The position numbers and the translations under genes are program-made. Under the pieces are notes generated by a model. It did not search any database and was not told the origin of the DNA. It was given only the letters and a program-made list of their open reading frames with translations. DNA of 21,132 nucleotides from a virus, in the IMG/VR virus record IMGVR_UViG_3300012936_000227, positions 1-21,132 of that record. The stretch is one strand, 5' to 3'. Shown piece by piece: positions 7,236-20,050 of this stretch (position 1 is the first letter of the stretch; each line of letters opens with the position of its first letter).

Positions 7236-7946
7236 ATGGCAAGGCCACTACCAAGACCTAGAAGTATAGATCAATTAAAAAAGAGTATACTAAATCCGTC
7301 AACAACATCTAACTATATTTGTCAATTTGCCGCTCCATCTCTAGGTGTTGAATCATCTATTGCAGTAGACTTCAAAGAATCTGCAGTAAGCACTCTAGGT
7401 GCAGAATTTAATTCTTCTGAAAATCGAGATTTGTTAGCAGTATCTTGTTCGGAGGCAACATTACCTGGATCTACTTTAGCAACATATGATATTGATAATG
7501 CATATCATGGAGTAAGTGAGAAAATGGCATATAGAAGAATATATGACGATAGATCAGATTTTACTTTTATTGTAGATAGAGATTATTATATTATTAGATT
7601 TTTTGAACATTGGATTTCTTATATAGTAGGAGAAACTAGTAACAGTTTACCAAACGGTCAAAATTATTCATATAAAGTAAAATATCCAAAAAATTATAGA
7701 AGTGATAATTTATACATAACAAAATTTGAAAAAGATTATCTTAATAACAATACTAGATTAACTTACAAATTTATTGGCGCATATCCACTTTCAATAGTTA
7801 GTATGCCTGTAAGTTATGATCAATCACAATTATTAAAATGTACGGTTTCATTTACATACCTCAGATATATTGTTAATCCAGTTAGAGATGGAGGTGATGA
7901 TACTTTAATTGGAGATGGATTTGATCCTAACCAAGGATTAGCTTAA
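7236..7946 (+). CDS. 54: gp54-like baseplate tail-tube initiator
   Basis: A 236-residue protein (T4 gp54 is about 320) assigned to gp54, which with gp48 forms the platform for tail-tube polymerisation. Features are the start ARPLPRPRSIDQLKKSILNP, a central CSEATLPGSTLATYDIDNAYHGVSEKMAYRR (written here in part: EATLPG..YDI), and FTFIVDRDYYIIRFFEHW, a beta-rich pattern typical of tail-tube-fold proteins (gp19, gp48, gp54). The end (PLSIVSMPVSYDQSQLLK) again fits tube-like proteins. It opens the second plus-strand block, diverging from gp4. Its neighbours gp26 and the hub genes match the order of the T4 hub cluster in rearranged form. Confidence 0.83.
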   Translation: MARPLPRPRSIDQLKKSILNPSTTSNYICQFAAPSLGVESSIAVDFKESAVSTLGAEFNSSENRDLLAVSCSEATLPGSTLATYDIDNAYHGVSEKMAYRRIYDDRSDFTFIVDRDYYIIRFFEHWISYIVGETSNSLPNGQNYSYKVKYPKNYRSDNLYITKFEKDYLNNNTRLTYKFIGAYPLSIVSMPVSYDQSQLLKCTVSFTYLRYIVNPVRDGGDDTLIGDGFDPNQGLA

Positions 7947-7978: not shown

Positions 7979-8698
7979 ATGCCTTTACCAAAAATTAGTA
8001 CTCCAACATATGAGTTGGAGTTACCATCAACTGGAAAAAATATTAAATATAGACCATTTTTAGTAAGAGAAGAAAAACTACTAGTAATTGCTTTAGAAAG
8101 TGAAGACACTAAACAAATTACAACAGCAATTAAGACAGTAATTAAAAATTGCATTCAAAGTAGAGGATTAGAAGTTGAGACTCTTCCTACATTTGATATT
8201 GAATTTTTATTTTTAAATATTAGAGCAAAATCTGTAGGTGAAGAAATTGAAGTTAATGTTACTTGCCCAGATGATGAAACTACAACTGTGCCTATTAAGA
8301 TTAATGTAGATCGTATTAAAGTACAGAAGGATAAATCACATACAAATAAAATTAAAGTTGATGATTCTTTAATGATGGAAATGAAATATCCATCTCTTGA
8401 ACAATTTATTAAGAGCAATTTTGATTTTAATGATGGAAATCAAATGGAACAATCATTTGATTTAATTTCTAGTTGTGTTGATAAAATTTATAATGAAGAA
8501 GAAGCATGGGATTCCTCTGATGTAACTAAAAGTGAGATTATTGAATTCCTTGAGCAAATGAATTCTGGTCAATTTAAAGAGATTGAAACTTTCTTTGAAA
8601 CTATGCCAAAACTTTCACATACTATTAAAGTAAAAAATCCAAATACTAAAGTTACAAGTAGTGTCACTCTGGAGGGACTATCAAGTTTTTTCGCGTAG
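7979..8698 (+). CDS. 26: gp26-like baseplate hub / tail assembly chaperone-type protein
   Basis: A 239-residue protein assigned to gp26 (T4 gp26 is about 208 residues). It has the typical start MPLPKISTPTYELELPSTGK, then KYRPFLVREEKLLVIALES, DIEFLFLNIRAKSVGE and VTCPDDETT, where the CP..D stretch is common to gp26-like proteins of many T4-like phages. The C-terminus contains QFKEIETFFETMPKLSHTIK. A GGAG at 7972-7975 serves as ribosome-binding site. The last codons, AGT TTT TTC GCG TAG, include a perfect -1 slippery heptamer that would carry ribosomes into the next small gene (see the regulatory entry at 8671-8692). Placement between a tube-like gene and tape-measure-like genes is that of a tail assembly chaperone. 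Confidence 0.85.
   Translation: MPLPKISTPTYELELPSTGKNIKYRPFLVREEKLLVIALESEDTKQITTAIKTVIKNCIQSRGLEVETLPTFDIEFLFLNIRAKSVGEEIEVNVTCPDDETTTVPIKINVDRIKVQKDKSHTNKIKVDDSLMMEMKYPSLEQFIKSNFDFNDGNQMEQSFDLISSCVDKIYNEEEAWDSSDVTKSEIIEFLEQMNSGQFKEIETFFETMPKLSHTIKVKNPNTKVTSSVTLEGLSSFFA
8671..8692 (+). promoter_or_regulatory. Predicted programmed -1 ribosomal frameshift site
   Basis: The heptamer T TTT TTC (8686-8692) lies in the X XXY YYZ register relative to the gp26 frame, four codons before the gp26 stop inclusive. A Shine-Dalgarno-like GGAGGG at 8671-8676 is 9 nt upstream, the arrangement that stimulates -1 shifting in E. coli dnaX. After slipping, reading continues CGC GTA GGG ATG and enters the 57-residue ORF at 8701 without a stop. 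The product would be the first 238 residues of gp26, then RVG, then the 57-residue protein: about 298 residues. No strong downstream hairpin is evident. Sequence facts are direct; use in vivo is inferred. Confidence 0.6.
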
Positions 8699-8700
8699 GG

Positions 8701-8874
8701 ATGTCTCATATGAATTTGAGTAATTATTTTGAACTTAATTTTTCGTTGATGCAATACCATAAATACTCATTGACAGAGATTGAAAATATGATTCCTTGGG
8801 AGAGAGATATTTACGTTGCTATGTTGCAGAACCACCTTGAAGAAGAAAAACTAAAACAGCAACACAATGCCTAA
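8701..8874 (+). CDS. Small 57-residue protein, gp51 position, likely frameshift partner of gp26
   Basis: This short gene encodes 57 residues: it begins MSHMNLSNYFELNFSLMQ, has HKYSLTEIENMIPWERDIY (residues 20-38) and ends in a charged helix LQNHLEEEKLKQQHNA. The motif IENMxPWERDxYxxML is typical of the small second parts of tail assembly chaperones. It follows gp26, where T4-like cyanophages are annotated with gp51 (baseplate hub assembly catalyst); T4 gp51 is much longer, so that name is only positional. The ATG at 8701 has no proper ribosome-binding site; ATG 8710 is preceded by AGGG with 9-nt spacing and could be an independent start. The 3' end overlaps the next gene by 8 nt. Confidence 0.78.
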   Translation: MSHMNLSNYFELNFSLMQYHKYSLTEIENMIPWERDIYVAMLQNHLEEEKLKQQHNA

Positions 8875-11380
8875 GAAAGAGACTATAAGCATAAGAATTC
8901 TTAAACTACTCAATCTTGAGAGTGAGTTTGAGATGTCTTATGAAGAATATTCTCGTAACTTAAAAGAGGCTCTTGCTGCTGCTAGATTACTTAAATCAAA
9001 ATTTTCTTCTGAGGAAGCGGAATTATTACTTAAAGAATATAAAAGGATAAGAAATAAAAAAGGAAGATTTACTATAAATCCTAAAAAGGAGAGTGTTAAT
9101 ACAGGACCAGAACCAAAAGTTAATAAAAAGAAAGCAATAGCATTTTTAACGGGAAGTAAAGAAAAACCTATAAAAACAGAATCAAAAAGTAAAGCACCTT
9201 CCTATACAAATAAAGAAGAAAAAACAAAAAATAAATCAATATCATTATTGCAAAAAATATCATCAACAATTGATAAAATTCATAAGAATGTATTGACTCT
9301 TAATAAAATATTAACTTCCTCTAATGAAAAAGATAGAAGACAACAAGTAAGATCAAGGAGAAAAGCACAAGAAACACGTCTTGAATCTAAAGTTTTTGAT
9401 GGATTTATAAAAGCAACTAAAGAAATACTCAAACCGTTTAAGTCTATTTTTGATAGAATACTACAGTTTTTGGTGTTTACTTTCTTAGGTAGATTATTTA
9501 CAATGTTTAGTGACTGGGCAGGTAATCCAGAAAACGAGAAAAAAGTTAATAATCTTTTCAGATTTTTGAAGGACTTTGCTCCTGCACTTACTACAGCAGC
9601 GTTTTTATTTTTAACTCCTTTTGGAGCTTTTATTGGTTCTGTAATAAAAATTGCAGGTGGAATGACTAAGAGATTACTTACTCTGATACCAAAATTATTA
9701 CTGTTTGCAAAGAGACATCCAATTGCAACTGCAGTAGTTTTGACTGCGTTATCTGCAGGAAAATTATTTTTGGATTCAAAAGGTGCTGGTGAAAAGGCAA
9801 TAGAAGAGGAAAAGAAAAAATTAGGTAGAGAATTAACTGCAGAAGAGGAAACTAAAGTAATTCAAGATAAGTTCTTGTCAAATCCAATATTGAATCCTAT
9901 TGCTAATTTTATGATTCCAACATTGACTGATCAGGTAACTGCTGATGATAAACCAGAAGATGAAAAAAATATTGGTGATAGAACATTAGATTTTGGTGGA
10001 GGAATTTTTGATAGTATAAATCAGTTCTTACCAGACTTTAGTGGTATATTTACTGGAGAGTTTAATAAGGGTGGAATCTTTAGTGGAATAGTAGATAAAA
10101 ATACTGGAACAAGCGTGTCTGGATTTGGTAAAGATACTCAATTCTTACCAATGGCAGACGGTAAGAGTGGTGTTGTTGTACAACCAGGAGAAATCGTTAT
10201 GAATAAAGAGCAGCAGAAAAAACTTGCTGCCGATACTGGAATAGATCCAAGAGAATATGTACCTGGACCTAAAAAAGGTAAGTTACAGAAATTTGCTTCT
10301 GGTGGAATGATAGGATCTAATCCAAATTATGAGACTGCATATAAGACAATTGGTTCAAACTTCCCATCAGCAAAACCACATCATATTGCTGGTGCTCTTG
10401 GTAATTTTGAAACTGAAGCACCTGGATTAAAACCAAATACCTATCAAATAGGTGGTGGTCCTGGTCGTGGTATTGCTCAATGGGAAATTGATCATTCTGG
10501 AAATAATTATATGGGTAGATGGCCAAAAGCAGAAGAAATGTATGGAAAGGGAGTAATTAATAGTTTAAAAGACCAATTGAATTTTATGAAATGGGAAATG
10601 GAAACGGGACACCCTCTTCCAGATGGAAGACCAAATCTTCCTTATGGAAGAGCAACTAAAGATACTTGGTTGGGATCTCCAAATTTGAGAAGCGCAACTT
10701 TAAACTTTATGAAGGCATATGAAGCTCCTGGTATTCCTCACACTAACAGAAGACTTGCCAATGCAAAGAAATTTTTAGATCTATCTAAAAATTTTGGTTC
10801 AAAAAAACAAATGGTATCATCTCCTTCATTACAATCATCTTCTTCATCACAAAAGAAAGATATATTTGAACCATTCAAAACAGCATATAAAAACTATGAG
10901 TCTTTTAGAGATAGTGAAGATGGTCAAATGTTGCAGTCTCTCATAAAAAATATTTTTGGATTTAAAGGTGGAGGAAAAGTAAAAGAAGGAACGGGTATGA
11001 ATATTCCTGGAGCAACTGATGATAGACAATTAGTATCATTAAGGGTTCAACCAGGAGAATATCTAAAAGTGTTTACAAAAGATTTTGTAGATAAAGGTGG
11101 AATGGATATTATGAATCAACTTCAATCTAGGTTAGATTCAGATTCAAATGCTAGAAAAAGTGGCATTAAACCTTTAGATATGAATAGATACATTCCAGAA
11201 TCTCCATCTACATCTAACGGAGGTATTCAGATTATTAACCTACCATCGGAAGTTATTTCTTCTGGAGCACCTAATATAGCAAAGAAACCACAAGAAACGG
11301 TTCCAAGTTTTGAAGCAGTATCTTCATCATCTATTAATAATAGAATGGCAATAGCAACTATTTACGGAATGATGGAGTAA
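8867..11380 (+). CDS. Tape-measure/hub-like protein A with phage tail lysozyme domain
   Basis: An 837-residue protein. The N-terminal third is highly charged and helical, with an RRQQVRSRRKAQETRLESK stretch near 162-180 followed by FLVFTFLGRLF. Two hydrophobic segments follow (LTTAAFLFLTPFGAFIGSVI near 241-260 and the AVVLTALSAGKLFL region near 289-302), as in tape-measure proteins. A lysozyme-like domain of the phage tail lysozyme type (Phage_lysozyme2) lies at about 480-640: HHIAGALGNFETEA with candidate catalytic E517, GRGIAQWE, then DQLNFMKWEME. Gly-rich joints such as FNKGG, FASGGM and FKGGGK separate segments. It occupies the slot after gp26 and the small chaperone-like gene, where tape measures usually are; T4 has gp29 (about 590 residues) in the equivalent role. 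It shares its N-terminal layout with the next gene. Tape-measure role is inferred; lysozyme domain is fairly clear. Confidence 0.72.
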   Translation: MPKKETISIRILKLLNLESEFEMSYEEYSRNLKEALAAARLLKSKFSSEEAELLLKEYKRIRNKKGRFTINPKKESVNTGPEPKVNKKKAIAFLTGSKEKPIKTESKSKAPSYTNKEEKTKNKSISLLQKISSTIDKIHKNVLTLNKILTSSNEKDRRQQVRSRRKAQETRLESKVFDGFIKATKEILKPFKSIFDRILQFLVFTFLGRLFTMFSDWAGNPENEKKVNNLFRFLKDFAPALTTAAFLFLTPFGAFIGSVIKIAGGMTKRLLTLIPKLLLFAKRHPIATAVVLTALSAGKLFLDSKGAGEKAIEEEKKKLGRELTAEEETKVIQDKFLSNPILNPIANFMIPTLTDQVTADDKPEDEKNIGDRTLDFGGGIFDSINQFLPDFSGIFTGEFNKGGIFSGIVDKNTGTSVSGFGKDTQFLPMADGKSGVVVQPGEIVMNKEQQKKLAADTGIDPREYVPGPKKGKLQKFASGGMIGSNPNYETAYKTIGSNFPSAKPHHIAGALGNFETEAPGLKPNTYQIGGGPGRGIAQWEIDHSGNNYMGRWPKAEEMYGKGVINSLKDQLNFMKWEMETGHPLPDGRPNLPYGRATKDTWLGSPNLRSATLNFMKAYEAPGIPHTNRRLANAKKFLDLSKNFGSKKQMVSSPSLQSSSSSQKKDIFEPFKTAYKNYESFRDSEDGQMLQSLIKNIFGFKGGGKVKEGTGMNIPGATDDRQLVSLRVQPGEYLKVFTKDFVDKGGMDIMNQLQSRLDSDSNARKSGIKPLDMNRYIPESPSTSNGGIQIINLPSEVISSGAPNIAKKPQETVPSFEAVSSSSINNRMAIATIYGMME

Positions 11381-11384
11381 ACTA

Positions 11385-14258
11385 ATGAGACTAAATACCC
11401 CAAAATTTCTTCCAGGATCTTCTCCAAAATCTACAACAATAGTTCCAAAAACTAAAAAAGTTCCTCTAGGATCAATATCTTCTCTTACAGTAACTCCAAA
11501 AACTAAAAAAACTTCTGATAAAGATCCATTAATTAATATTTTAAAAAAATCTATATTAATTAATAAAAATCTAGAAAAAATCAATAAGTCTCTAATTAAA
11601 AATCAGAATAAAAAGAGAATACAATCTAATAGGAAAAAACGTAAAGACGAAGAAGATAGACTTGAAGGTAAAGCACTAACCGGAGAGAAAAAATCTAAAG
11701 AAGAAGGTGGTCAGAAAAAACCATCCTTCCTTCAAAGAATACAAGACTTCCTAGGATATACTTTTTTGGGGTGGTTATTTGAAAACACTAAAAAATATTT
11801 ACCGAGAATATTAGAAATTATTAATGTTTTAAAACCCATTACAAAATTTTTAACCAATACATTTAAATTGATTGGTGAAGCATTAATTACTTTTATTGAT
11901 ACTGGATATGATTTAATTGATAAATTTGGTAAATGGAAATCTAAGAATATTGATGGAACCAGCTTTGAAAAAATATTTAATCCTGTAATTGATAATTTAG
12001 AAACGGTTGCAAATCTTACATTGATTGCAGCAATGATTTCTATGACTGCTAAAGGCGGTATGGGTAGAAATAATAGACCTAGAAACCCTAAAGGTAGAAA
12101 TAATAGACCTAGAACAGGTAGAAATAATAGACCTAGAACAGGTAGAAATATTAGACCCAGAGGAGTTACTGGAACTCGTAAAGATAGACTTTTTAGAAAT
12201 CCATTTAGAAGAAAGCCTTCAATTACTGGAACTCGCAAGGATAGATTCTTTAGGAATCCATTTAGACAAAAACCAAAACCTACAGGAACAAGAGGATATA
12301 GATTCAGGGAAAGACTAGAAAAAATTAATCCAGTAAGAAAGAGAGCACCTGTTACAACAGGTAGTGGTACAACAATACAAATTTTAAAAGATAGAATAAA
12401 GTTTTTAGAGAATAGAATAAAAAAACTTCTTACTACTATAGGAGATCAAACAAAAAGAATATCTGATGCTGCTTTAAGACGAGCGCCAGTAATAGCATCA
12501 GAACTAAAAAAACGTGCAGATATTACTTTTGATGCTGTAAAAAGTGCTATACAAAAAGGTAAATTTAAAGCAAACCAACTTGTTGAGTTAGCAAAACCTC
12601 TACTAGGTAGAATAGTGAGTAGTGGGAAAGCAGGTTTAACTTCTGCTAAATCACTATTAAGACCTTTATTAAAACCATTGCAAACTCCAATTAGATCAAT
12701 ACCATTTATTGGTGCTCTAATTGATTTTGGTATTAATACTTTTATATTTGGAGATTCACCAGGTGAAGCAGCATTTAAAGCAGCATTTGCGGGTATACTT
12801 GGTGCAATTGGTGGTGCTGCTGGTAGTATTGCTCCCGGTCCAGGTACATTTATTGGTGCGACTTTAGGGGGTATGCTTGGAGATAAAATAGGAGGATGGA
12901 TTTACAATAAAACTATTGGAAGTGGTTCAGGTGAAGAAAAGAAAGCAGGTGAACTTGAATTAAATCAATTTAATAAAGGTGGTACTATAGAGAAAAGTGA
13001 TAGTCAAATTTCTAGAAAATCCAAGAAAGATATAAAAGAAGTAGAGAAATTAAAAATTAAAAGATTACCAACTACATATGGAAAACTTAATGAAATAGAA
13101 ACTGTTAAAAAAATATTCCCTACATCAATAGATCCTACAGAATTCCAAAGTCCGTATAATTTTATAAAAAATAGTACTTTAATTGGAAAACAAGTACCAT
13201 TTTATGGACCGCTATTTAATTTATTTGGTAAATCATTGTTAGGAAATACAAGTACTAATTATGATATAGGTATGATTAGTGTTGGTATTGCATCATTAGT
13301 TGGACATATATTTAAGACTGGACTTAAAAAAGAAAAATCATTATATGATATTTTTCAAAATCTTCCACAGTTAATTTACAATGCTACTGAGAGATTTTTA
13401 GTTTCTTTCTCTGAAAAAATATTAAATGAATTAGAAGTTCAACTGGAATTAAAATCAATTTACAACAGTACATTGTTAAAGGTTGATGATAAAAAAGATG
13501 AACCATCTGGATCTACCTATGGTCCTCAGTCAATACCAACAGAGAGAGACAGTGCTAGTGGTGCAGATACTTCTAAAAGTATTCCACAAATTGTAAACAG
13601 TGATTGGTCGCCAGTTTTAAATCTGATCTATAAGTATGAAGCTGGTAGTGGTGGATATGAATCAATGTATCCTAGTACTACACTTCCAGGTGCAACTAAA
13701 ATGACTATCGCAGAAGTTGCTTCTAAAGCAACTGGAGCAGTAGGTGCTTGGCAAAACATGCCAAGATTTTTGAATGAAAGAGCAAGAGCAGTTGGTTTAG
13801 ATCCAAACACAGCGTTATATAATGAAGAAAACCAGGAAAAAATTGCGATTTATTTGATTGGTGAGGGTCAGGCAAATGTGACGAAGGAAATGGCAAAAAA
13901 TAATCCTAAAGAAGCAATGCTTAGACTCTCAAGAGTTTGGGCTGCAATTCCTAAGGATGATAGTGGTGTGAGTTTTTATGCTGGTGTGGGTGATAATGCT
14001 GCTCATATTAAACCTCAACAAATGTATGATGCTTTTGAAAAATTAAAAGGTGGTGGAACTCCAATCAAAACACCTCAACCAAGATCATTCAAATCATTAC
14101 AAGAAAAGACTTCATATGAGAATGGTATAATTATTTTAATTAAACGTGAAAAGGAGATTGTACATACACCAATAAATAATAATGGAATGAGTATTATTAG
14201 AACTTCAAACAATAATTCAACATTAAATCCAAAAAAATTAGAATCTTTCATGAAATAA
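11385..14258 (+). CDS. Tape-measure/hub-like protein B with muramidase/transglycosylase-like domain
   Basis: A 957-residue paralogue of the preceding protein. The N-terminus again has a helical INILKKSILINKNLEKINK stretch, a very basic KKRIQSNRKKRKDEEDRLEGK, then FLQRIQDFLGYTFLGWLFE. Residues 227-310 are a run of Arg-rich tandem repeats (see the repeat entries). A Gly/Ala-rich hydrophobic region (FAGILGAIGGAAGSIAPGPG, about 468-487) suggests a membrane-active segment. At about 740-900 there is a domain like lambda-type muramidase/lytic transglycosylase: IYKYEAGSGGYESMYP with candidate catalytic E752, GAVGAWQNMP, and later IAIYLIGEGQ. The gene starts 4 nt after protein A and its stop abuts the start of the gp27-like gene. 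A role in tail length, hub assembly and peptidoglycan penetration is inferred; substrate is not proven. Confidence 0.7.
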   Translation: MRLNTPKFLPGSSPKSTTIVPKTKKVPLGSISSLTVTPKTKKTSDKDPLINILKKSILINKNLEKINKSLIKNQNKKRIQSNRKKRKDEEDRLEGKALTGEKKSKEEGGQKKPSFLQRIQDFLGYTFLGWLFENTKKYLPRILEIINVLKPITKFLTNTFKLIGEALITFIDTGYDLIDKFGKWKSKNIDGTSFEKIFNPVIDNLETVANLTLIAAMISMTAKGGMGRNNRPRNPKGRNNRPRTGRNNRPRTGRNIRPRGVTGTRKDRLFRNPFRRKPSITGTRKDRFFRNPFRQKPKPTGTRGYRFRERLEKINPVRKRAPVTTGSGTTIQILKDRIKFLENRIKKLLTTIGDQTKRISDAALRRAPVIASELKKRADITFDAVKSAIQKGKFKANQLVELAKPLLGRIVSSGKAGLTSAKSLLRPLLKPLQTPIRSIPFIGALIDFGINTFIFGDSPGEAAFKAAFAGILGAIGGAAGSIAPGPGTFIGATLGGMLGDKIGGWIYNKTIGSGSGEEKKAGELELNQFNKGGTIEKSDSQISRKSKKDIKEVEKLKIKRLPTTYGKLNEIETVKKIFPTSIDPTEFQSPYNFIKNSTLIGKQVPFYGPLFNLFGKSLLGNTSTNYDIGMISVGIASLVGHIFKTGLKKEKSLYDIFQNLPQLIYNATERFLVSFSEKILNELEVQLELKSIYNSTLLKVDDKKDEPSGSTYGPQSIPTERDSASGADTSKSIPQIVNSDWSPVLNLIYKYEAGSGGYESMYPSTTLPGATKMTIAEVASKATGAVGAWQNMPRFLNERARAVGLDPNTALYNEENQEKIAIYLIGEGQANVTKEMAKNNPKEAMLRLSRVWAAIPKDDSGVSFYAGVGDNAAHIKPQQMYDAFEKLKGGGTPIKTPQPRSFKSLQEKTSYENGIIILIKREKEIVHTPINNNGMSIIRTSNNNSTLNPKKLESFMK
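12063..12164 (+). repeat. Arg-rich tandem repeat GRNNRPR(T) in protein B
   Basis: Four tandem units encode GRNNRPRNPK, GRNNRPRT, GRNNRPRT and GRNIRPRG. The first is 30 nt and the others 24 nt; units two and three are identical at the DNA level, and the first shares its opening 22 nt with them. Near-identity at third positions points to recent expansion by slippage or unequal recombination. The encoded stretch is strongly basic and probably disordered. Confidence 0.85.
12168..12314 (+). repeat. 57-nt repeat TGTRKDRxFRNPFRxKP in protein B
   Basis: Two near-identical 51-nt copies (12168-12218 and 12225-12275), each followed by a 6-nt spacer, encode TGTRKDRLFRNPFRRKP and TGTRKDRFFRNPFRQKP, giving a 57-nt period. 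A third, diverged copy (TGTRGYRFRER) begins at 12282. It directly follows the GRNNRPR repeats, so about 85 residues are made of two different basic repeat families. Confidence 0.82.
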
Positions 14259-15877: not shown

Positions 15878-18800
15878 ATGTCTAGTAATTTTTGGAAGGG
15901 GCAAATTGTAGATGATCAAGTTTGGAAGGGTAATGAAAACTCTGAAAAATGGGGAAGTACTAATGATGTTCCAGGATGGCAAAAAAGATATAAGGTTAGA
16001 ATTTTTAATGAACACCCTAAATCAAAAGAAGAATTATCAGACAACGATCTTCCCCTAGTAAATGTAATATATCCAGTTACTGGAGGAAGTGGTCATGGTT
16101 CAAGTTTTCAAAGTTCAAATTTAAGAAAAGGATCTTTTGTCATTGGTATATACAGTGAAGATTCTCAACCAATAATACTAGGTACATATTCAAATAGTGA
16201 TCAAACTCCATTATTATTTGATATACCAAGAGAAGGATATGTACCATTTTCTGGATTAGTTGGTGAAACAGTTCCCTGGTATTCAATTCCTGGAGACGGT
16301 CAGAATGGACAAGGATCTGTCTATGGAAGTCCAAATGAAGCATCAGGATTTTTAGGAACTAACTGGGAGAGTGTTTCTGATAAGAATATTAAAGAAAGAA
16401 TACAGAAAGAATCTCCACTGAATTCATCTCACAAATGTGCTCAAGGTAGTGGCGCAATTGGTGGTATGCAATTGGCAATTATCGATATGATTATCGATAT
16501 TGAACAAATTAAAAAAAGAACTACTGATTGGTATTCTGGAGTTCAAGATTGGACAGAAAATGAAATAAAAAAAAGGATAGAGAACGCATCTAGAGACATA
16601 TCTAAAGTATTAAAGGATATGATTCAAGACGTGCGTCAATTTATAACCGCAAAAGTAAATGATGCAGTCAAAGCATTACAGTCTCTTATTCCAGCAAATG
16701 AAAGGCAAAAAAGTCAAAAAGCAGTAGAATCTGTTTTAGATTTAATAAATTGTTTATTTGATAAAATTGTTAACGCACTTATCAGCATGGTAATTGACAT
16801 GTTATTGTCAGTTGTTGATCGTTTTATAAATGCTCCTTTAAATGCTGTACAAAAACTTGCTGGTACATTAATTGGAAATGTATTTGGATATATTTTAGGT
16901 AGTGTTAACAAAATTATGGAACCATTATCAGCAATATTTGGTGGTGGTGGTTTAATTGATAAAATATCATCCTCTGCATTATCATTTCTTGGGGATATAT
17001 TGGCATTCTTATCATGCCAAAACGATTCAGAATGCCCAGAAGTAACTAAATGGAGTATGGGTGGAGGATTTGGTACAAAAAGTGAAAATTTATCTGCCGA
17101 TATTAATTCAGTATTGGATATGGCAAAAGATATTGGATCTCAAGTTGAATCATTAGTAGATCCAGATTCTTTTAGTTTTGATATTGATTTTGGAGGTGCA
17201 ATTTCTCAGGCTATAGCAGAAGATAATGTTGGACCTATTTTATGTGGCCCTCCAACAGTAGAATTTTTTGGTGGGGGAGGATCTGGAGCTGCAGCAAATG
17301 CCATTATAGGTGCTAGTGGAGAAATCTTAGGAATTGATATGGTTTCTTTTGGGCAAGGATATACATCTGCTCCTATTGCAAAAATTGTAGATTCTTGTGG
17401 AAAAGGTCAGGGAGCAGTATTGCTTCCTATAATGGGATCAAATCAAACTGGTGGATTTATAAATCAAGCACCAGTTTCTATCAGTAATGATGTTGATGCT
17501 TCAGAAAATCCATCTATTACTTTTAGTGGTGGAACAACACAAATTATTTCTATAGATAAACCAATTAAGGAAAAGGTTGAATCAACTATAAAAGCAACTT
17601 GGAAACTACTTGGACCAAGAAGAGTATCTTTAGAAGTTGTTGGAGAAGGAAGTGGTTTAATTAGAATAGATTTGGAAGTTAATGATAATCCTAATGATCA
17701 TGGAATATCATTTGGAACAGCTAGAGAAGAATGTTCTGGAATTAGGTTTGCTTATGATGGCGAAAAACAAAAAACTTTTCAAGAAAGTACCTATGTTGCA
17801 GGGTCTTATGAGTTTATAATTACTGATCTTATAGAAGATTTAATTTTAGAAGAGAATAATACAAGAATTAAATTAAGAGATAATGATGGACAAGACACTA
17901 ATGCATCATTTACAATTACGCAAATAACACAAAGTGATTTTATTAGAGAAACTAATGTAATTGAAACAGAAGTAATTACAGTTCCATTGACAATTAATGG
18001 TAATCTAGGACCATTTCCAATATCTGATATTGTTGAAGACTATGATTATCCTAGAACTGATGATGGAAATCAAATTGCTAATCCCTGTGCGGCAATTACA
18101 AATGTAAATATTATTAAGGCATATGAATTATTTGAAAATTATGAAATAGTAACAGAAAGACAAGCTGGATTTTATCCTAAAACTAATGGTGAATATGCTT
18201 ATCATAATTATGGTGGTCAAGCTGAACTTTGGTCAGGAGAAAATGATTTTATAGAAAGTGTAGTTGCTCTTCAAGGTGGACAAGGGGTAGGATTGCAAGT
18301 TCATGTAAGATTAGAAGCTACTATTGGATTAGGAGGAAGACCAAATAATACAAGATATAAAATAATATCAATAAGAAATCATGGTTATGGTTATCAAGTT
18401 GGTGATATTTTAAGTTTCCCAGATATAAATGGAAGACCTACAGCAGACATGGGAGGTATATTTAGAATTGCTTCTATGAGTTCTATAACATCTTTAAATG
18501 ATAGGGACTCCGTTGAAACTGAATCCAGATTAGTATTTCCTGGTGGAGGTATGAAAACTTTCAGTTTATACTCAAATTATGATCAAATAAAAGCAACTGG
18601 ATATTATCCAAGTAAGTTAGGTGAACTTGGATACAATGTTTGGGGTGGAGTTGTAGAAGCATGGGGATCTCTTGATGATACGGTTGTTCTTGACGTTGAA
18701 CCCATATCAATGGAAGGTAGTTCAGGTGAAGGAATGGTTCTTAAAATGAGATTTAGTGCTTTCCCTGGATTAGCAGGAAACCCAAGAAATACCACATATT

Positions 18801-20050
18801 CAATTTTAGAAATTACTAACCCAGGAACTGGTTATCAGGTTGGAGATAGATTAACAATACCAGATCTAGAGTTTAAAACCGAAAGTCAAATTGCTGCAGA
18901 TGCGGAGGAAAATGAAACTGCCTTCGTACAAAGCGAGGAGGCTGTTTTTTCTGGATCTATAAAAACACTCAGTGATATGGGAGGAATAATTAGGGTTGAT
19001 AGTGTAAGTGATCCAAGATTTGAAGATTTTATTATTACAGAAGATATTGTACCTACACAACCAGATAGTGATGGTAATATTGGTGGAATTGATATTGATG
19101 GTGGAGGAGAAGATACTGGAGGAATAATTGATGATGGTGCTGGAGTTGATGTTGTATGTCCTCCAAATTTAATTATAAGTACTTTTAATGATACCTGTAA
19201 TAAAGAAGTTAAAGATACAAGAACAATAGGTGTTACTCAAGTTATTGTTATACAATCAGGAATTGGTTACACTAGTGCTCCAGATGGTTCTTTAGGTGGA
19301 TCTGGAAGAACTTGGGCAAACGCAGAGGATACTGTTGTCCGAAGAATTGATGGTAGATGGGATATTCCTTATCCACCAGGTAGTCAACTTCCTGATAATT
19401 TAACTGTTTGTGATAGTATATTTGAACCAGGAGATCCTCCTGGTGATCCTGGAGGTCCTCCTGGAGGTCCTGGAGATCCTGGTGACCCCGGTGATCCTGG
19501 TGATCCTGGTGACCCTGGAGATCCTGGTGACCCCGGTGATCCTGGAGATCCTGATGACGAAGTAATAATTGTTGATCCTGGAGATACTGATGATCCTGGT
19601 ACTGGAGAACCTATTGAACCTCCAGATTTTCCAGAACCTCCTTTTGAGGAAGGTGAAATATTTGTCCCTCCTGGAAGAATAGATTATCCAGCACTATCAG
19701 ATTCTACATATGGTGTAATTTTATATCTATGTGATGTTTTTATTGAAAATGGTGGAATAAATTATTCTAAAGATGATACTATAGAATTATCTTCAGATTT
19801 TGGTGCTGTTTTAGAACCAATATTTGCAGATAATGGATCAATACTTGGTGTAAATATTCTAAGTAGTGGAACTGGCTTTACTGAAAGACCTACATTGACA
19901 GTAAAGACAGAAACAGGTTATAATGCAAACTTAATCCCTGTATTCTGTATAACTAGAGTGGGGGATTCAAAAATCATACCTAGTTCATCGGATGTGATAC
20001 AAGTTATTGACTGTGTAGGAAAACACCCACTAACACCAAGAAATATGTAA
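15878..20050 (+). CDS. gp5-like hub protein: OB-fold, helical insert, repeats and collagen-like tract; no lysozyme
   Basis: A 1390-residue protein. Residues 1-110 are a gp5/VgrG-type OB domain: FWKGQIVDDQVWKG, YKVRIFNEHP, LPLVNVIYPVTGGSGHG, KGSFVIGIY and QPIILGTY. Where T4 gp5 has its lysozyme there is instead a helical, partly hydrophobic region at about 165-385 (DIEQIKKRTTDWYSGVQDW, then LISMVIDMLLSVVDRFI) that ends in a pair of cysteines. The rest is beta-rich with internal repeats: GYTSAP-type modules near 480-500 and 1126-1133, a duplicated block at about 758-868 and 907-1043, and a collagen-like (GDP)n stretch at 1185-1225, then a Pro/Glu-rich linker and a last GYTSAP-related module. 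No catalytic lysozyme motif was found. It follows CP12 by 4 nt and is followed after 1 nt by the spike gene. Call rests on the OB domain and synteny with the gp27-like gene. Confidence 0.75.
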   Translation: MSSNFWKGQIVDDQVWKGNENSEKWGSTNDVPGWQKRYKVRIFNEHPKSKEELSDNDLPLVNVIYPVTGGSGHGSSFQSSNLRKGSFVIGIYSEDSQPIILGTYSNSDQTPLLFDIPREGYVPFSGLVGETVPWYSIPGDGQNGQGSVYGSPNEASGFLGTNWESVSDKNIKERIQKESPLNSSHKCAQGSGAIGGMQLAIIDMIIDIEQIKKRTTDWYSGVQDWTENEIKKRIENASRDISKVLKDMIQDVRQFITAKVNDAVKALQSLIPANERQKSQKAVESVLDLINCLFDKIVNALISMVIDMLLSVVDRFINAPLNAVQKLAGTLIGNVFGYILGSVNKIMEPLSAIFGGGGLIDKISSSALSFLGDILAFLSCQNDSECPEVTKWSMGGGFGTKSENLSADINSVLDMAKDIGSQVESLVDPDSFSFDIDFGGAISQAIAEDNVGPILCGPPTVEFFGGGGSGAAANAIIGASGEILGIDMVSFGQGYTSAPIAKIVDSCGKGQGAVLLPIMGSNQTGGFINQAPVSISNDVDASENPSITFSGGTTQIISIDKPIKEKVESTIKATWKLLGPRRVSLEVVGEGSGLIRIDLEVNDNPNDHGISFGTAREECSGIRFAYDGEKQKTFQESTYVAGSYEFIITDLIEDLILEENNTRIKLRDNDGQDTNASFTITQITQSDFIRETNVIETEVITVPLTINGNLGPFPISDIVEDYDYPRTDDGNQIANPCAAITNVNIIKAYELFENYEIVTERQAGFYPKTNGEYAYHNYGGQAELWSGENDFIESVVALQGGQGVGLQVHVRLEATIGLGGRPNNTRYKIISIRNHGYGYQVGDILSFPDINGRPTADMGGIFRIASMSSITSLNDRDSVETESRLVFPGGGMKTFSLYSNYDQIKATGYYPSKLGELGYNVWGGVVEAWGSLDDTVVLDVEPISMEGSSGEGMVLKMRFSAFPGLAGNPRNTTYSILEITNPGTGYQVGDRLTIPDLEFKTESQIAADAEENETAFVQSEEAVFSGSIKTLSDMGGIIRVDSVSDPRFEDFIITEDIVPTQPDSDGNIGGIDIDGGGEDTGGIIDDGAGVDVVCPPNLIISTFNDTCNKEVKDTRTIGVTQVIVIQSGIGYTSAPDGSLGGSGRTWANAEDTVVRRIDGRWDIPYPPGSQLPDNLTVCDSIFEPGDPPGDPGGPPGGPGDPGDPGDPGDPGDPGDPGDPGDPGDPDDEVIIVDPGDTDDPGTGEPIEPPDFPEPPFEEGEIFVPPGRIDYPALSDSTYGVILYLCDVFIENGGINYSKDDTIELSSDFGAVLEPIFADNGSILGVNILSSGTGFTERPTLTVKTETGYNANLIPVFCITRVGDSKIIPSSSDVIQVIDCVGKHPLTPRNM
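18150..19005 (+). repeat. Two diverged copies of a ~120-residue module in the gp5-like protein
   Basis: Copy 1 (about 18150-18480) and copy 2 (about 18595-19005) encode parallel sequences: GFYPKTNGEYAYHNYGGQAELW against GYYPSKLGELGYNVWGG..EAW; GLGGRPNNTRYKIISI against GLAGNPRNTTYSILEI; GYGYQVGDILSFPD against GTGYQVGDRLTIPD; and DMGGIFRIASM against DMGGIIRVDSV. Copy 2 has an insertion of about 25 acidic residues before DMGG. This is intragenic duplication, long diverged at the DNA level. Boundaries are approximate. Confidence 0.8.
19430..19552 (+). repeat. Collagen-like (Gly-Asp-Pro)n tract in the gp5-like protein
   Basis: Forty-one codons (residues 1185-1225) encode Gly-x-Pro triplets, ending in nine consecutive GDP triplets, with two single-Pro interruptions in the first part. 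Synonymous variation (GGA/GGT, GAT/GAC, CCT/CCC) shows the tract is held by protein selection and not only by slippage. Proline in the Y position of G-X-Y fits a collagen-type triple helix, which agrees with a trimeric gp5-like protein. This is the most GC-rich stretch of the gene. Confidence 0.9.

Follow-up and report, generated by a model that had tools for sequence, protein, structure and literature searches.

A conserved −1 slip site at the end of gp26 predicts a frameshifted tail assembly chaperone in a T4-like phage, probably a cyanophage

The small open reading frame that follows gp26 in many T4-like phages is usually annotated as a gene of its own, gp51. Is it a separate gene, or is it the C-terminal part of gp26, reached by ribosomes that change frame just ahead of the gp26 stop? 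We address this question for a 21-kb virus fragment (21,132 nt, here called the window), for which an earlier note made from the letters alone had proposed a programmed −1 frameshift of the kind used for the tail assembly chaperones G and GT of lambda.

The gp26 locus and its slip site

The window, being a 21-kb fragment, shows a single gp26 match. The gp26 protein belongs to PF12322 by a wide margin (250 bits vs. a curated cut-off of 24.5, covering profile positions 2–219 of 219); among named phages, cyanophage proteins are nearest to it, and the phage behind the window is T4-like and probably a cyanophage. The locus sits, as the earlier note had placed it, between a tail tube gene, recognized by PF23849, and tape-measure-like genes (Table 1). 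Among annotated relatives, HTVC008M and Cr30 each have a tape measure gene on the downstream side, and HTVC008M also has a tail tube gene upstream.

Table 1. Features of the gp26 locus and its neighbours in the window
Feature	Position	Strand	Basis
Tail-tube-like gene (gp54-like), upstream	7236..7946	+	PF23849 Phage_TTP_2 E=8e-15; phrog_45 tail tube
gp26 homologue of 239 aa, predicted to be the short form of the chaperone (TAC-N)	7979..8698	+	PF12322 T4_baseplate E=2e-74; phrog_150 positions 5-232
GGAGGG, Shine-Dalgarno-like, 9 nt ahead of the slip site; predicted to stimulate the frameshift from upstream	8671..8676	+	lowest anti-SD pairing energy
Slippery heptamer T TTT TTC, predicted −1 ribosomal frameshift site	8686..8692	+	TTTTTTN before stop in 240/243 relatives; synonymous constraint
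−1 frame extension, 60 aa + stop, predicted C-terminal domain of long form (TAC-NC), usually annotated as separate gp51 from ATG 8701	8692..8874	+	phrog_634 E=2.6e-26; phrog_150 C-terminal 241-281
Zero-frame stop TAG of gp26, predicted to be bypassed after shift	8696..8698	+	sequence
AGGG (8697-8700) with two potential start codons, ATG 8701 and ATG 8710, that may allow weak independent initiation	8697..8712	+	sequence; lost in many relatives
Large tail protein A (tape-measure/tail-lysozyme-like), downstream, predicted client	8867..11380	+	PF18013 tail lysozyme; phrog_9570 tape measure E=1.4e-6
Large tail protein B, downstream	11385..14258	+	phrog_90 endolysin; phrog_1047 tail lysin; weak phrog_973/794 tape measure matches

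Two features of the tail region are recorded here in their own right. Positions 8867–14258 encode two large proteins in succession, both tape-measure-like, with lytic-domain matches that differ (tail lysozyme for A, endolysin/tail-lysin type for B), and a GDPGDPGDP repeat run lies at 19400–19530, inside a 1390-aa tail protein (15878–20050).

The gp26 frame ends CTG GAG GGA CTA TCA AGT TTT TTC GCG TAG, and in it the heptamer T TTT TTC stands, as had been claimed, in the register of a tandem −1 slip. TTTTTTC directly precedes the last codon in 80/80 of the closest relatives, all from viral contigs, and the −1 register is kept in 80/80. Across 243 distinct loci, comprising these 80 relatives, the named phages and the loci yielded by four more viral-contig scans (scans with the distant queries Cr30 and D480 returned few or no loci), TTTTTTN ends zero to two codons ahead of the gp26 stop in 240, of which 228 have TTTTTTC. 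The carriers include the named phages Syn9, P-SSM2, HTVC008M (Pelagibacter), Cr30 (Caulobacter), phiM7 (Sinorhizobium) and, among the non-Tevenvirinae Straboviridae, VH7D (Vibrio) and AsFcp_2 (Aeromonas), as well as Pseudomonas phages. Within the bodies of the related gp26 genes, T TTT TTN occurs at only 14/30,072 codon pairs; a stop-proximal frequency of 240/243 against this background indicates that the heptamer is not there by chance.

Three loci depart from the pattern. Vibrio K474 (L093) and Serratia MAM1 (L098; Ackermannviridae) have gp26 genes with C TTT TTG and G GTT TTC in place of the classical heptamer; their −1 extension is still open, for about 60 aa, and carries MPWH, and these two phages probably use a different slip motif. 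In the third locus (L180) the gp26 frame stops early, probably through a sequence error.

The earlier note had named synonymous disruption of the heptamer in relatives as evidence against a frameshift, and codon choice at the site shows no such disruption. With redundancy reduced so that identity stays below 85%, 130 loci remain; in these, the first slip Phe is TTT in 130/130, vs. 66% overall in the same genes, and the second is TTC in 123/129 (95%), vs. 34% elsewhere in the same genes; over all 240 loci, the codon before the Phe pair ends in T in every one, vs. 154 expected from codon usage, these constraint figures carrying no formal probability, as figures from loci that share kinship. Codons near the slip site, for example the last before the stop, vary freely.

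The −1 extension and the case for a separate gene

From the heptamer, the −1 frame runs through CGC GTA GGG into ATG 8701 and on to a stop at 8872–8874, as the earlier note had read it, predicting a fusion of 298 aa. The 60 residues of the extension are RVGMSHMNLSNYFELNFSLMQYHKYSLTEIENMIPWERDIYVAMLQNHLEEEKLKQQHNA, and they contain IENMIPWERDIY, the motif first written as IExMxPWERDxY. The extension is open in 240/240 loci with the slip site and is 56–69 aa long where a contig end does not cut it; in the relatives, the small reading frame lies adjacent to gp26 and in the −1 register, with no other register or distance found. The third positions of the −1 frame are the most variable, even upstream of any ATG, a pattern like that of coding sequence.

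The best-surviving alternative, which we nevertheless consider very unlikely, is that the small reading frame is a separate gene, gp51, expressed either from a start of its own or by ribosomes that re-initiate once past the gp26 stop, and that TTTTTTC is incidental. Databases annotate it as a gene, and in most relatives (155 loci) the first ATG falls where ATG 8701 does in the window, two nucleotides beyond the gp26 stop. The earlier description of its own ATG as poorly spaced for initiation is correct for ATG 8701, which GGG abuts and which has GGAGGG 24 nt upstream, but not for ATG 8710, where AGGG lies 9 nt ahead and might permit weak re-initiation; the two ATGs could allow some separate expression. 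The relatives, however, include 37 loci that have no ATG before the conserved core, and in a Syn9-like group the first ATG usually comes at extension codon 19, with the 18 codons ahead of it conserved as protein (RIALLHxxLxxYYExNFALMHHHKW). The annotated gp51 genes of Syn9 (L085:2271-2414) and HTVC008M (L096:1846-1983) begin at an internal ATG, at extension codon 18–19, and thus start inside the domain and omit its N-terminal part, because no earlier ATG exists. Where the ATG is absent or late yet the codons upstream of it are conserved, frameshifting is the sole plausible route to the extension. Re-initiation also leaves the constraint on TTT TTC and on the preceding base unexplained, and in the phages tested for copy number a single PF12322 copy is present wherever the slip site occurs. 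In several other records, no gene is annotated at the gp51 place.

Signals around the slip site and the proposed mechanism

The Shine-Dalgarno-like GGAGGG reported 9 nt upstream of the heptamer is present in the window, and the expectation that the purine stretch would be conserved is upheld by synonymous selection across relatives. The mean anti-Shine-Dalgarno pairing energy of the 130 non-redundant relatives has its minimum just upstream of the slip site, at a value that 0/200 synonymous re-codings reach, and the Glu of the element is coded GAG in 68%, vs. 29% overall.

Downstream of the slip site, no stimulatory RNA structure is found in the window (z=+0.77 and −0.23), which counts against the frameshift reading. 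A clade-wise scan in 40-nt windows gives strong structure only in the P-SSM2-like group, with z about −3.4 just past the slip site. These phages have an 11-bp hairpin, absent from the window, that begins 5 nt past the heptamer; it is seen in P-SSM2 (L086:2220-2250), where z is −4.55, and in L189–L268. In an alignment of 34 sequences (30 P-SSM2-like and four others), 92.5% of hairpin cells are paired; covariation is slight, a single pair having changes on both sides. The hairpin is a possible second stimulator in this group. Short palindromic stems, for example GGUCC-AUAU-GGACC, occur at the matching place in some other cyanophages. One helix common to all clades was considered and rejected; the search gave nothing but weak helices that took in the invariant slip run itself. 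A weaker second structure signal lies inside gp26, at about 8560–8600 in the window (some 130 nt before the slip site), with a mean z for the window clade of about −1.7.

The same T run, being a conserved homopolymer, could in principle act on RNA polymerase, which would slip on the six Ts and produce mRNAs of two lengths. We regard transcriptional slippage as still less likely than a separate gene: a six-base run is short, its seventh base is C in 228/240 loci and does not lengthen it, and the in-frame X XXY YYZ register, together with a Shine-Dalgarno-like element at near-fixed spacing, indicates ribosomes. The last alternative, that a gp26 ending in Phe-Phe happens to yield TTTTTTC by chance or amino-acid constraint, has next to no probability: the Phe-Phe residues are invariant in alignment A2, so the run is partly forced by the protein, but the synonymous-site test given above contradicts this reading, as does, for chance, the open extension in every locus with the slip site.

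We conclude from these sequence comparisons that gp26 and the small downstream reading frame very probably form one expression unit for a frameshifted tail assembly chaperone. We infer that most ribosomes would end at 8696–8698 and release the 239-aa short form, and that a fraction would move one base backwards at T TTT TTC, with the same Phe tRNA re-pairing with UUU UUU and GGAGGG likely pairing with 16S rRNA behind the slipping ribosome. After the slip, 60 more codons would be read, yielding the 298-aa long form, which has an additional domain at its C-terminus. On the model of lambda gpG/gpGT, both forms would coat the downstream-encoded tape-measure-like protein or proteins and recruit the tail tube protein.

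Domain layout, copy number and comparison with known systems

Profile comparisons with T4 agree with a short form that has the N-terminal domain only and a long form that has both. On phrog_150, T4 gp26 covers positions 14–235, T4 gp51 covers 13–280, and the small reading frame of the window covers 241–281. A profile of the extension aligns with the C-terminus of T4 gp51 (E=6e-4) and gives no alignment with T4 gp26. A profile of the gp26 alignment was uninformative against T4 gp51 as a lone sequence; the PHROG and Pfam profiles gave a clear answer. Full PF12322 copies number two in T4 and in Klebsiella KP1079 and one in each of 14 non-Tevenvirinae phages, all of which have the slip site and in whose records no second full-length PF12322 gene with the C-terminal domain is found. 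In the gp26 genes of T4 and KP1079, no slip site is found. In this sample, slip site and second PF12322 gene are thus mutually exclusive.

With moderate confidence, we propose a broader reading of these results: that the annotated gp51 of Kyanoviridae and several other T4-like lineages is mainly the frameshifted end of gp26, without being a free-standing gene; that the slip site and Shine-Dalgarno-like element, which are near-universal, form one layer of the signal, and a hairpin that may retune the short-to-long ratio forms a second, found in P-SSM2-like phages; and that in Tevenvirinae a gene duplication took the place of the frameshift. One phage family would then contain both arrangements, frameshifting within one gene and a pair of duplicated genes, apparently for the same job. 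The reading would correct a widespread annotation in abundant marine phages, in which gp51 is either called a baseplate hub assembly catalyst or left unannotated, and would tie the T4 hub chaperones gp26 and gp51 to the lambda-type chaperone system.

PMC3004832 lists both T4 proteins, gp26 and gp51, as chaperones of hub assembly and describes gp51 as required yet missing from the finished particle. Virion mass spectrometry is therefore a poor way to find the fusion peptide, for which lysate is better suited. Among the PDB matches listed for the fold predicted for gp26 (pLDDT 88), one alone exceeds a probability of 0.5: 2ob9_B, the tail assembly chaperone of HK97, a weak match (probability 0.77, E about 1, 62 columns only, TM-score 0.43 by target length); a search of solved structures by sequence with the gp26 profile gave no matches. 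Taken together, gene position, the short/long design, the listing of the T4 proteins as chaperones and the weak 2ob9 match point to a chaperone of the lambda G/GT type that would act on the large tail proteins, which supports the function that the earlier note had suggested.

Lambda gpG/gpGT resembles the window pair in having a short form and a −1 frameshifted long form, encoded between the tail tube and tape measure genes. The lambda slip heptamer, however, is G GGA AAG, and the phage of the window has a contractile tail; the two are likened by layout, not by sequence homology. T4 shares with the window a gp26 that is the short form and a gp51 whose C-terminal part is homologous to the extension, but differs in having two divergent, separate genes, with two PF12322 copies and no slip site.

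Vladimirov, Gautam and Davidson reportedly identified the tail assembly chaperones of T4-like phages in 2022, with frameshifting said to be conserved in several T4-like groups and T4 itself said to encode the two forms by genes 26 and 51. The earlier note, which knew of no established frameshift at gp26/gp51, is to be corrected on this point: passages of two later papers cite this work (Virology 2022, doi 10.1016/j.virol.2021.11.003), one for the presence, in T4-like phages, of poly-T −1 slip signals within the short-form genes (PMC12846349) and one for the use of separate short and fused genes by some T4-like phages (PMC10885494), and as far as these passages go, the gene pair is of the same kind as that of the window. 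Kind and locus are known already, as probably is the lineage spread, and our additions are incremental: the breadth of conservation, the upstream element, the loss of the ATG, the misannotation of gp51 and the P-SSM2-like hairpin. Similar in its signal is the chaperone locus of Pakpunavirus Adele and the Vandenendeviridae (PMC12846349), likewise with a −1 frameshift at a conserved poly-T motif and a conserved open −1 frame; compared by motif and frame logic, it differs in its motif, which is GTTTTT there and TTTTTTC in the window.
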